A stretch of DNA of 64,000 nt from an uncultured Clostridia bacterium (GTDB lineage Bacteria; Bacillota; Clostridia; UBA1381). The notes below the pieces were generated by a model. The model ran no database searches. It worked only from the letters and a program-made list of their open reading frames with translations, and was not told where the DNA came from. Shown piece by piece: positions 3,801 through 9,278 of the stretch; within the stretch, counting starts at the first letter, position 1; each line of letters starts with the position of its first letter. The DNA lies in assembly GCA_947624165.1 (NCBI GenBank), contig CANQJC010000002.1, positions 62,001 through 126,000 of the forward strand, in the 5' to 3' direction. A program made the translations under genes and the position numbers.

Positions 3801-4538
3801 ATGGAAATTTCAATAATTGTCTGTGACGATGACGGAATTTTTCGTGAGGAAGTCGAAAAGCGTGTTTATAAAATCATGACCGACATGAATTACTCTTATA
3901 AAATCTTCCACTGTGCCGACGGAGCCGAGCTTATAGAGTGCTGCTGCAAACATGACGTTGACATTATTTTGGCGGATATAGATATGCCCGCCGTGAATGG
4001 ATTTGAAGCCGCAAAGGAGCTTGACGGAATACAGCCGGACGCGGAGCTTATTTTTGTCACGGCGCACAGCGAGCTTGCTTATCAGGCGTATGATTATAAG
4101 CCGTTCTGGTTTGTCGACAAAGCCGATATAAACCGATTCGATAAAGTATTTCTGAAGCTTGTGACAAAAATCATAAGGAGAAAACATGCAAAACACGTCG
4201 TCATTGTCGGAGAGAAGAACGATATTCAACTGCCGATAAATAACGTAATGTATTTTGACTCTTACAAAAACAATATAGTCGCGCATATGGAAAGGGGTGA
4301 AGCAATAACATTCAGATCCACCGTGAAGAAGCTTTACGAGCAGATCCGCGGCGAATATTTTGTAATGGTACAGCGCGGATACATAGTGAATTGCAGATTC
4401 ATAAAGCAATTCAGAAGCAAATATGTCGATCTTACGAACGGTGAAAGATTGACTGTTACAAGAGATACAAATAAACTTGAAAAAGCGCGTGCGCTTTATG
4501 GAAAGTATATGAGGGAACAATATGGAGAATCTATTTGA
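3801..4538 (+). CDS. LytTR-family response regulator, AgrA-like
   Basis: This 245-residue two-component regulator has an N-terminal receiver domain (about 1-125) with acidic residues D9/D10/D11 and probable phospho-acceptor D59 in ADIDMP. The C-terminal LytTR DNA-binding domain (about 140-240) contains FRSTVKKLYEQI and FVMVQRGYIVN. It is the expected output of the adjacent kinase and presumably binds the direct repeats before agrB. The gene overlaps the kinase by 17 bp, so the two are translationally coupled. The order (regulator, kinase, then agrB-agrD) is the reverse of staphylococcal agrBDCA. Confidence 0.92.
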   Translation: MEISIIVCDDDGIFREEVEKRVYKIMTDMNYSYKIFHCADGAELIECCCKHDVDIILADIDMPAVNGFEAAKELDGIQPDAELIFVTAHSELAYQAYDYKPFWFVDKADINRFDKVFLKLVTKIIRRKHAKHVVIVGEKNDIQLPINNVMYFDSYKNNIVAHMERGEAITFRSTVKKLYEQIRGEYFVMVQRGYIVNCRFIKQFRSKYVDLTNGERLTVTRDTNKLEKARALYGKYMREQYGESI

Positions 4539-5805
4539 AATTTTTGTGAATATTATTGAGGAATTTATAATTCTTTTGTTTTTATCGGCTTACTTCGGCT
4601 GCAAATACGACGGTAAAAAGAAATACGCGGCGTTCGCGGCGGGTATGGCGATCTCGGTCGGAACCATAACGCTGCTGGACAATGTTTCGGCGTTCGGAGT
4701 GGAAAATTTTCTGGGACTGTTTTTGATACTGATATATTTTTCCTATTCCTGCATATTTTTAAAGGGAGACGTTTACACAAAAATATTCATTTCATGCTTT
4801 ACGGACTGCGTTGTGGTATCCATAGCGGATTTGTCGTCGGTGATCGTAAGCTTTTTGTTCAATAAAAATATTCCGCAGCTGTCGATACTGTCCGCCGAAA
4901 GAATAATTCTTATCGTGATGACGAAGCTGCTGTTGATTTGCGTTTGCGTTTTTCTGTACAGGCATAAAATTTCAAACGTCGTGAAAGAAAAGAACATTAT
5001 CGTGTTGATTATAATGCCGATACTCACCGAGATCCTGTTCGCCGGAATAACTCCGATATATCTAAAATACGGCGATTTGAAGGAGGAAATGGTCGCGCTC
5101 GAAGCAAGTATTGTCGTTTTGATAATGCTGATGTATTATATGTTCGTACAAATAAATCACGACGCGAAACTTAAAACCGACTATGCCGTTTTAAGCCAGA
5201 AATACGAATCCGACAAGGCTCACGCCGGAGAACTTAAGGAGCTGTACGAAAAGACCTGCGGGATCAAGCATGACCTGAACATATATTTCTACACCGCCAT
5301 GACGTATCTTGAAAACGATGTGGAAAAGGCGAAGGAATATATGAATTCGGTAATGAATGAAAAAATAAAGGACGATATCAGATACATAGAAACGGACAAC
5401 GAATATTTCGACGCGATAGTAAACACAAAATTGGCGGTATGCCATAAAAAGGGCATACTTGCGCAGGTGCGCGTTATGAACAATACGCTGTCAAAGCTTT
5501 CGGACGAAGAGATAGGTATAATATTCGGGAATCTTCTCGACAACGCCATTAAAGCCGCGGACGAATCGAAGGAAAAAACGATAGAACTGGACGTAAAGAA
5601 GCAAAGCGTGTACGTGTCGATAATAGCGCAGAATTCCATAGACGGATCCGTTCTTGACGCCAACGGCGATTTAAATACAACAAAATCCGACAAACAGTCT
5701 CACGGATTCGGCGTTAAAAATATACGCCGTATTGTGCGAGATCATGACGGAATAATAGATTATTTTGAGGAGGACAACAGATTTTTCTGTCACATACTGG
5801 TATAA
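4522..5805 (+). CDS. AgrC-like sensor histidine kinase (GHKL ATPase)
   Basis: This 427-residue membrane kinase has six or so hydrophobic helices in the first ~215 residues, forming a peptide-sensing domain. A coiled linker follows, then a dimerisation segment with the likely phospho-histidine H250 in GIKHDLN. The C-terminal GHKL ATPase carries NLLDNAIKAADE (N box) and HGFGVKNIRRI (G box). AgrC proteins bind the cyclic peptide made from AgrD by AgrB. Overlap with the upstream regulator and proximity to agrB/agrD support this. There is no H-box of the classic EnvZ kind, as usual for the group. Confidence 0.9.
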   Translation: MENLFEIFVNIIEEFIILLFLSAYFGCKYDGKKKYAAFAAGMAISVGTITLLDNVSAFGVENFLGLFLILIYFSYSCIFLKGDVYTKIFISCFTDCVVVSIADLSSVIVSFLFNKNIPQLSILSAERIILIVMTKLLLICVCVFLYRHKISNVVKEKNIIVLIIMPILTEILFAGITPIYLKYGDLKEEMVALEASIVVLIMLMYYMFVQINHDAKLKTDYAVLSQKYESDKAHAGELKELYEKTCGIKHDLNIYFYTAMTYLENDVEKAKEYMNSVMNEKIKDDIRYIETDNEYFDAIVNTKLAVCHKKGILAQVRVMNNTLSKLSDEEIGIIFGNLLDNAIKAADESKEKTIELDVKKQSVYVSIIAQNSIDGSVLDANGDLNTTKSDKQSHGFGVKNIRRIVRDHDGIIDYFEEDNRFFCHILV

Positions 5806-5810
5806 AATAA

Positions 5811-5845
5811 TACAGTTTATCACAAAAAAGTACATTTCATCACAA
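5811..5845 (+). promoter_or_regulatory. LytTR-type direct repeat operator before agrB
   Basis: Two direct repeats, TACAGTTTATCACAA (5811-5825) and TACATTTCATCACAA (5831-5845), match at 13 of 15 positions. They are 20 bp apart start to start, close to two helical turns. The first contains ACAGTT, the core of AgrA/LytTR sites. The second ends 5 bp before the -35 box at 5851. Confidence 0.65.
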
Positions 5846-5850
5846 GGTCA

Positions 5851-5879
5851 TTGACCTTGTGATTCTTTTTAAATATAAT
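5851..5879 (+). promoter_or_regulatory. Sigma-A promoter of agrBD
   Basis: TTGACC (5851-5856), a 17-bp spacer and a perfect TATAAT (5874-5879). A perfect dyad with 12-bp arms (5839-5850 and 5852-5863) covers the -35 box. With the following TCTTTTT it could also act as a weak terminator for the kinase gene. Confidence 0.75.
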
Positions 5880-5908: not shown

Positions 5909-6487
5909 ATGAAAAAAAGCATATCCTTTCTTGTTGACACAATGCTTCGAAATCACATAATAGAAGCTGAAAAAGCAGAAATATGCCGGACGGGACTTGA
6001 ACTGATTATCTCGGATATAATAGGCTTTTCTTTGATATTGATTGCGGGTCTGCTGACCGATACAGTCGTATTTGCCTGCGTGTATTTGATTATGATGTGC
6101 TGCGTCAGAAAATTCTGCGGCGGCTTCCACGCAAACAGTTATTGGCTTTGCCGTACGGTGAGCGTGGGAACATATATTGCGGTCATAATCGTTAATTATT
6201 TGATTACGGAGCATGAAATGGCGTTTACGCTGTTCTTCGATATATTTTCGCTGGTTACGATAGCGGTTTTTGCCCCCGTGCGCCATCCGAACAAGACGCT
6301 CACCGATACGGAGGTGAAAGCGAACAAATTCTTTTCCGTAATATCAGCGTTTGTTTTCAGTATTCTTTCTGTTGTGCTGACCATATACCGCCTGAGAACA
6401 GGTTTGGTTATAGCAATAATAATGTTCGCGATCGCCGTGCTGATGTATGCGGGCATGATTGCAAACAAGAGAAGGGAGGTTATCTGA
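5909..6487 (+). CDS. agrB: AgrB-type membrane endopeptidase for autoinducer precursor
   Basis: This 192-residue accessory gene regulator B protein is an integral membrane cysteine protease that cuts the AgrD precursor and forms the (thio)lactone ring. The catalytic pair is visible as H74 and C81, seven residues apart in KFCGGFHANSYWLC, the same spacing as His77/Cys84 of S. aureus AgrB. About six hydrophobic segments are present and length is typical (180-210). It is directly followed, without a gap, by the short precursor gene at 6488. The promoter and LytTR-like repeat lie just upstream. Confidence 0.93.
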   Translation: MKKSISFLVDTMLRNHIIEAEKAEICRTGLELIISDIIGFSLILIAGLLTDTVVFACVYLIMMCCVRKFCGGFHANSYWLCRTVSVGTYIAVIIVNYLITEHEMAFTLFFDIFSLVTIAVFAPVRHPNKTLTDTEVKANKFFSVISAFVFSILSVVLTIYRLRTGLVIAIIMFAIAVLMYAGMIANKRREVI

Positions 6488-6667
6488 ATGTTAAGGAACA
6501 AAATTCTTTCGGCTATGGCGAACGCCGCCGAAAACGCGTGCATGGATTCAATGGGTGCCGCATCGAGAAAGCTTGCGTATGAACCGAAACTCTCCGAGGA
6601 AATGAAGGCATACAAGAACACCCATATATCGAAAATCGAGAAAATGTTCAGAAAACTGTCAAAGTAA
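6488..6667 (+). CDS. agrD: AgrD-like cyclic peptide autoinducer precursor (Ser-type)
   Basis: This 59-residue ORF starts at the codon after the agrB stop, where agrD is expected; GGGAGG of the agrB end serves as ribosome site. The N-terminal ~20 residues form an amphipathic helix. The segment SRKLA (26-30) is followed by YEPKLSEE. This lines up with the clostridial pattern of a Cys/Ser-led five-residue ring followed by H/Y-Q/E-P-acidic (for example CLWFT followed by HQPEEP in C. perfringens). A Ser26 lactone is inferred. Cys18 is an alternative ring residue but lies too far from the EP motif. The C-terminal tail of ~29 residues is longer and more basic than usual. Confidence 0.8.
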   Translation: MLRNKILSAMANAAENACMDSMGAASRKLAYEPKLSEEMKAYKNTHISKIEKMFRKLSK

Positions 6668-6748
6668 GATTTAATTCGTCACCAATGATGAAGTTACATA
6701 ATGTACAAAAGAAAAAGGGTACGAAAGATAAAATTTTTTAAGTTTTCA

Positions 6749-6778
6749 AATAAGGGACTCGCGTTCCTTATTTTTTTT
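6749..6778 (+). terminator. Terminator after the agr locus
   Basis: A 9-bp stem (6749-6757 with 6764-6772, one G-T pair) with a 6-nt loop runs into eight T residues (6771-6778). Confidence 0.85.
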
Positions 6779-8708: not shown

Positions 8709-9278
8709 TTATTTCTTTGTTGTTTTTGTTGCTGCCGTTGATGCTGCGGGCTTTGCCGCCGTCTTTGCTGTTGTTGCCGCCTTTGCGGGAGCCGCTGCCT
8801 TTGCGGGTGCCGCCGCCTTTACGGGAGCCGCAGGCTTTGTTGCTTTTGCTTCAGATTTTTTTGTTTCTGTCTTTTTTGCGGGAGCAGTCTTTGATGTTTT
8901 CTTCGCGGCTGTCTTCTTGGCGGGAGCCTTTTTAGCCGCTGTCTTCTTTGCAGGCGCTTTTTTAATTGTGTTCTTCCAGTCTGTGATTTTAGAAGCGTCT
9001 CCCTGAACGTAAGCCTCGCCGTTGGCAACCGCCTTGTCCAGGCTCATTCTTCCGGCAATAACAGCCAGAAGTGCTGACTTTGTAATGTTAAGAACAGCGT
9101 TGTTATCGTAATAATCGTAGGGCTCAACAGAGAGCTTGCCGTCTTTTACCTCCGCATAGAAGGTACCGCCGCAGTCCTCGTCGGTAAACGTTACCTGAAC
9201 CGCAAAATCCGATAATCCGCTCGCGTCAGCTTTGTCGAATTTACCTTTTACCTTTAAAAATGCCTGTTCGAATGTCAT
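8709..9278 (-). CDS. SCP2 sterol-carrier-like domain fused to a Lys/Ala/Pro-rich histone H1-like tail
   Basis: This is a 189-residue protein. Residues ~1-105 form an SCP2 (sterol-binding-like) fold, a small hydrophobic-ligand domain (AVQVTFTDEDCGGTFYAEVKDG, the LNITKSALLAVIAGRMS helix, then AYVQGDASKI). From about 106 to the end the chain is almost only Ala, Lys, Pro and Thr, in imperfect APAKKTAAKK-type repeats, like histone H1 or AlgP tails and expected to bind nucleic acid or other polyanions. No signal peptide is seen. SCP2 proteins of this size in Clostridia normally end after the domain, so the tail is unusual. The function of the combination is unknown. The SD AAAGGAG and a consensus promoter lie upstream. 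Confidence 0.85.
   Translation of the reverse strand: MTFEQAFLKVKGKFDKADASGLSDFAVQVTFTDEDCGGTFYAEVKDGKLSVEPYDYYDNNAVLNITKSALLAVIAGRMSLDKAVANGEAYVQGDASKITDWKNTIKKAPAKKTAAKKAPAKKTAAKKTSKTAPAKKTETKKSEAKATKPAAPVKAAAPAKAAAPAKAATTAKTAAKPAASTAATKTTKK

Follow-up and report, generated by a model that had tools for sequence, protein, structure and literature searches.

A complete agr-type operon in an uncultured Clostridia bacterium with a predicted serine-lactone signal and a long-tailed AgrD precursor

Which residue closes the ring of the signal peptide encoded by this locus, and what might the long C-terminal part of its precursor do? The AgrD-like ORF following agrB has no Cys at the ring position, and the original prediction placed the ring at Ser26, giving a charged lactone with the core SRKLA and a tail described as unusually long and basic. 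Coordinates refer to the window, that is, the whole stretch of 64,000 nt analysed (contig CANQJC010000002.1, positions 62,001-126,000 of the forward strand, assembly GCA_947624165.1). The window contains a complete agr-type quorum-sensing operon in the order response regulator, kinase, agrB, agrD; the plan of the locus is ordinary, and what is unusual is its lineage, characterized by a serine ring, a polar core bearing Arg, and a long tail.

The agr locus and its relatives

All four genes are located on the forward strand. The AgrA-like response regulator (3801..4538) combines a receiver with a LytTR DNA-binding domain (PF00072, E = 5e-15, and PF04397, E = 2.8e-10, respectively), and is followed by an AgrC-like sensor histidine kinase with a GHKL ATPase domain (4522..5805; PF14501, E = 2.7e-19). 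PF14501 and PF04397 both scored above their cut-offs and the gene order was the same in relatives, as for an AgrC/AgrA pair; the kinase gene was likewise positioned directly 5' of agrB in seven related loci (L048, L050, L051, L052, L053, L054 and L055). Judging from this adjacency, the kinase is the probable receptor of the AgrD peptide. The agrB gene (5909..6487) encodes a membrane cysteine endopeptidase/cyclase of 192 aa, matching PF04647 with 116 bits relative to a gathering cut-off of 23, and the predicted retention of the catalytic residues His74 and Cys81 was borne out, both being present and unchanged across 12 orthologues. It is the sole AgrB found in its genome assembly, which is approximately 82% complete.

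The agrD gene (6488..6667, forward strand) begins at the base next to the agrB stop, preceded by GGGAGG at 6474-6479, and relatives are arranged alike, in agreement with the original description of a short ORF immediately after agrB. Its 59-aa product, MLRNKILSAMANAAENACMDSMGAASRKLAYEPKLSEEMKAYKNTHISKIEKMFRKLSK, can be divided into a leader (residues 1-25, 6488..6562) ending in a conserved G-x-A in which G23 and A25 are invariant, a predicted ring S26-R-K-L-A30 (6563..6577) positioned by homology with characterized AIPs, and a C-terminal tail (residues 31-59, 29 aa, 6578..6664) comprising a YEP segment and a conserved S48-K-x-E51 helix. A terminator-like hairpin is found approximately 80 bp 3' of agrD (6748..6773, forward strand). 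As in AgrD proteins generally, a ring-type nucleophile (Cys, Ser or Thr), here Ser26, stands five residues before a [YH][QE]P-type segment, here Y31-E32-P33. With TIGR04223, whose curated cut-off is 19 bits, the window AgrD taken alone scored only 13.8 bits, which could suggest a non-functional or chance ORF next to agrB; orthologues alike in sequence and position occur beside AgrB orthologues in several genera, making this reading scarcely credible and upholding the identification as AgrD. One orthologue (G069:C26) reached 31 bits, above the cut-off, and five of eight aligned long-tailed AgrDs matched the model at E<=1.

When the AgrB query was searched against 70 genomes of the window's family, orthologues of 42-47% identity were recovered, most of them followed by an ORF of the same type (59-63 aa), and eight related genomes had both an AgrB (41-47% identical) and a long-tailed AgrD. 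The AgrD orthologues were 41-54% identical and lay 3' of an AgrB orthologue in seven other genomes, while in G016 agrB and agrD were at the ends of different contigs (ends of G016:C56 and G016:C25; loci L010 and L213), where an insertion or an assembly break may part agrB from its likely agrD. A profile of the long-tailed AgrDs searched against 391 genomes spread over the class gave full-length matches in the window's family only, and a search of the open literature returned no description of this AgrD group, which is not proof of absence. Among the relatives with names, which include Candidatus Ornithomonoglobus merdipullorum, metagenome assemblies from the gut predominate.

Some arrangements departed from the common plan. 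At L214 2881-5290 (G045:C60), an agrD-like ORF with the core SRGGA and an altered tail comes after a response regulator and a kinase, with no agrB in between; G045 has an AgrB of the window's lineage elsewhere (C70). In another family, an orphan long-tailed AgrD-like ORF with the core SQGFE was seen at L215 2703-2972 (reverse strand), with no agrB in the 8 kb examined. Within the window itself, an ORF at 8709-9278 (reverse strand) has a C-terminal half consisting of a Lys/Ala-rich low-complexity tail.

To examine relationships, 85 AgrB rows, labelled with their ring and tail types, were placed in a tree built by a quick method with SH-aLRT support; midpoint rooting served for drawing. The long-tailed set formed one side of a branch with support 100, of nine rows when L010, whose agrD sits elsewhere, is counted; according to the tree, the long tail arose once and was then kept. 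This branch was nested in a 19-row group (support 95) in which 18 of the 18 assigned AgrDs have Ser as ring residue. In the rest of this group the tails are shorter (13-24 aa), and the rings include SSNGM (Ructibacterium gallinarum), SGSGM (L054) and STSGM (the second system of L051). These short-tailed AgrDs, whose AgrB lineage is sister to that of the window, share with it the G-x-A-S motif, the small polar Ser ring and the gene order, but lack the SKxE helix and an Arg or Lys at ring position 2. Both types occur at L051 1836-7763 as two tandem regulator-kinase-agrB-agrD systems, the first long-tailed and the second short-tailed. The nearest outside group holds an AgrB paired with CPWII, the core of C. 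difficile Agr1 (L101).

Ring residue, placement and polarity

Among the nine long-tailed orthologues, Ser26, the GxAS motif and YEP were invariant; in the eight aligned AgrDs, to which L036 was added as the ninth, the invariant positions were A11, G23, A25, S26, Y31, E32, P33, S48 and E51. Closure through Cys18 would recommend itself as this is the only Cys of the window AgrD, but in the nine orthologues the residues at this position are C F F F F A A Y F. Since Ser26 is invariant while the Cys18 position is F, A or Y in the other orthologues, Ser26 is by far the best ring candidate; cyclization through Cys18, which the original prediction had set aside, was ruled out as very improbable. From the sequence, the signal is thus probably a serine lactone.

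The use of serine is not exceptional in itself, contrary to what the absence of a ring Cys had seemed to imply. TIGR04223 matches were found in 122 of the 391 class-level genomes, and 90 AgrDs were chosen from the matches listed, giving a sample weighted to the better-scoring ones; among the 88 that could be parsed, the ring residue was Cys in 57, Ser in 22, Thr in 2 and another letter in 7, with the qualification that in several of these 7 a Cys stands within two residues and that one Ser row (SCIIS) is ambiguous as a Cys adjoins the Ser. Rarity of serine was accordingly dropped as a distinguishing feature. In AgrDs of a Lachnospiraceae lineage (L058-L085) a Cys follows the Ser (SC core), and Oscillospiraceae relatives have Ser or Thr at the Cys position, which may reflect more than one change of the ring residue.

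There are also published precedents. Staphylococcus pseudintermedius/intermedius RIPT[STGFF] (PMC12312760, PMC10482373) has a five-residue Ser ring like that predicted here, and its lactone has been proven chemically in Staphylococcus, although this ring ends in two Phe and belongs to a distant lineage with a short staphylococcal tail. Enterococcus faecalis Fsr, producing GBAP, QN[SPNIFGQWM] (PMC12312760), likewise involves a Ser lactone made by an AgrB-type enzyme, as predicted for the window, but with a nine-residue ring and with fsrD embedded in fsrB. A further precedent is C. difficile Agr2 (agrB2D2C2A2), NSA[SSWVA] (PMC12312760), which is clostridial, has a Ser ring residue and has its own kinase and regulator; its ring is hydrophobic and its gene order is B-D-C-A, relative to A-C-B-D in the window. 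Conversely, an AgrD with Ser could not be processed by S. aureus AgrB1 or AgrB2 (PMC10482373); whether Ser can be used therefore depends on the AgrB, a point counted against an agr lactone at this locus.

With respect to placement, the ring residue of known AIPs is located five residues before the segment that starts the tail, as in S. aureus AIP-1 YST[CDFIM], C. perfringens [CLWFT] and C. difficile Agr1 ANST[CPWII] (PMC12312760). In the sampled L101 sequence, HQP directly follows the CPWII core. When the precursor is aligned with S. aureus AgrD, Ser26 falls at the place of Cys28 and E32 at that of E34, which is among the tail residues reported to be essential (PMC10482373). The position of SRKLA is thereby supported, and a cut after Ala30 is predicted. 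Ring size could nevertheless differ by one residue: the same agr system may form a larger or shifted ring (for example, from S26 to Tyr31) with the cut elsewhere before or inside YEP, given that six-residue clostridial rings are listed, as for C. acetobutylicum, [CVLVTL] (PMC12312760), that some sampled AgrDs have their Cys one residue off the usual position, and that ring positions 3-5, which are not conserved among long-tailed AgrDs, do not fix the cut site. We regard this as unlikely, as the invariant Y31-E32-P33 aligns with the residues just past the cut in S. aureus and C. difficile Agr1, and five-residue spacing suits the great majority of the 88 sampled AgrDs; a ring from Ser26 to Ala30 is thus preferred.

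SRKLA as such does not represent a conserved core, only the Ser and a basic second residue being kept; the positive charge predicted for the ring was better supported, as ring position 2 of the nine long-tailed AgrDs is Arg seven times and Lys and Met once each (R/K in 8/9). Counting F, W, Y, I, L, M and V at ring positions 2-5 as hydrophobic, at least two such residues were present in 75 of 80 sampled rings, none of which contained Lys or Arg (0/80), while each of the nine long-tailed rings had zero or one. Relative to the class sample, the polarity of the ring is therefore an outlier. In the wider serine clade, 17 of 18 rings had at most one hydrophobic residue, the exception being L013 (SMWGM, three hydrophobics), a row assigned to the polar group by hand. 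Hydrophobic residues of the kind required in staphylococcal AIPs for AgrC are missing from the window's ring, which counts against the model presented below.

The AgrD tail

The 29-aa tail had been predicted to be unusual in being both long and basic, of which only the length stood. Tails of the long-tailed set measure 29-30 aa, outside the 11-22 aa of the class sample (n = 88), a range that also applies when C. difficile Agr2 is the comparison. Net positive charge was found in 62 of the 88 sampled tails, so that an acidic tail is not the clostridial norm, and the charge of orthologous tails ranged from approximately +4 to -2, giving no support to a role for basicness, which was dropped as a special feature. 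What is unusual is consequently tail length together with the polar ring, a ring serine being already known elsewhere.

Conservation in the tail is highest at its end, where mean pairwise identity reaches 54% (residues 47-58); residues 40-46 average 43% and the leader 42%. An AlphaFold model of AgrB-Trp-AgrD, in which the agrB stop is artificially read as Trp to join the two proteins and from which the helix assignment alone was used (mean pLDDT 87; approximately 62-78 in the AgrD part), placed helices at AgrD residues 37-45 and 49-58; a Foldseek search of the PDB with this read-through model returned nothing at E<=0.001. Processing by S. aureus AgrB is affected by the length of the AgrD tail and by its residues E34 and L41 (PMC10482373); the counterparts of these two residues in the window are the invariant E32 and M39, respectively. 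We infer that the extra helix is likeliest to be an added contact with AgrB.

Alternatively, the released tail (residues 31-59), with its amphipathic end, could constitute a second product that acts, for instance, on membranes or as a signal. The identity of residues 47-58, with S48 and E51 invariant, their helical conformation in the model, the single gain and retention of the long tail, and the helical moment of the window's tail end (shuffle p 0.0035) would fit such a product, but the moment reached significance by shuffling in some orthologues only, being weak or non-significant in several, no export signal was found, and the S. aureus tail is freed into the cytoplasm and degraded (PMC12312760). 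A contact with AgrB is favoured, and a second product is considered improbable.

Promoter layout and a model for the system

Upstream of agrB, two imperfect 12-bp direct repeats, ACAGTTTATCAC and ACATTTCATCAC, separated by an 8-bp gap (5812..5843, forward strand), form a VirR-box-like, putative LytTR operator just upstream of the -35 (at 5851) of a sigma-70-type promoter for agrBD (TTGACC-17-TATAAT, 5851..5879, forward strand), assigned by consensus match (11/12). VirR boxes have this layout (PMC2838878), with a spacing of 7-8 bp between repeats that directly precede the -35. Comparable pairs with a 20-22 bp period preceded agrB and a TTGAC/TATAAT promoter in most related loci examined, with no such pair seen in L052. 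A terminator-like hairpin (5839..5863, forward strand; 11 pairs, 3-base loop, T-rich tail) probably ends agrCA transcription; it overlaps the -35 of the agrBD promoter and may couple both.

A direct-repeat search of the window's genome assembly returned, at the setting used, the agrB site only, and in the loci of relatives no further pair of this kind was conspicuous. The secreted-protein genes next to these loci shared no Pfam family. Small proteins with apparent signal peptides are encoded 3' of agrD in L047 (2366-2968), L049 (1677-3259), L051 (8065-8547), L054 (3586-5523) and L055 (4848-6959), and are possible targets.

C. difficile Agr1 (agrB1D1), ANST[CPWII] (PMC12312760, PMC10602386), resembles the window in having a VirR-type site at its promoter, on which RgaR acts (PMC10602386), and differs in its Cys ring, hydrophobic ring, 16-aa tail and lack of an adjacent kinase or regulator. 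As the Agr systems of C. difficile (Agr1) and C. perfringens have been reported to be non-autoregulatory (PMC10602386), the positive feedback on agrBD that we infer from the operator may fail here.

Taken as a whole, an agr locus with a five-residue Ser26-Ala30 lactone, a feedback loop and a docking tail is the reading we consider likely. The genes and their order, the conservation of Ser26, the tail and the catalytic residues, and the operator and promoter layout are observed; the cut site, ring chemistry, receptor, feedback and role of the tail are deduced. AgrD would be bound at the membrane by AgrB, which, through His74 and Cys81, would cut after Ala30 to give an acyl-enzyme; attack by Ser26 would then yield the five-residue lactone S-R-K-L-A, the leader would next be trimmed off, followed by export of the peptide. 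Once its concentration is high, the peptide would activate the adjacent AgrC-like kinase, and the LytTR regulator would bind the repeats at 5812-5843 and raise agrBD transcription, closing a positive loop. The first part of the tail (YEP to M39) matches the tail required by AgrB of S. aureus, and the additional helix at the C-terminus would probably serve as a docking contact for this AgrB lineage, being discarded after cleavage.

More tentatively, and with less than even confidence, the group can be seen as a serine-lactone agr lineage with a small polar, Arg-containing signal, whose AgrC would read charge and backbone rather than a hydrophobic patch of the staphylococcal type, and whose AgrB would require the second helical segment of the tail. 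An AgrB lineage working wholly on serine, with rings devoid of the hydrophobic residues used in receptor recognition, would extend the range of chemistry known for agr signals. The long tail offers a natural test of substrate recognition by AgrB, and for gut-type Clostridia, known for the most part through metagenome assemblies, the peptide is a candidate signal.
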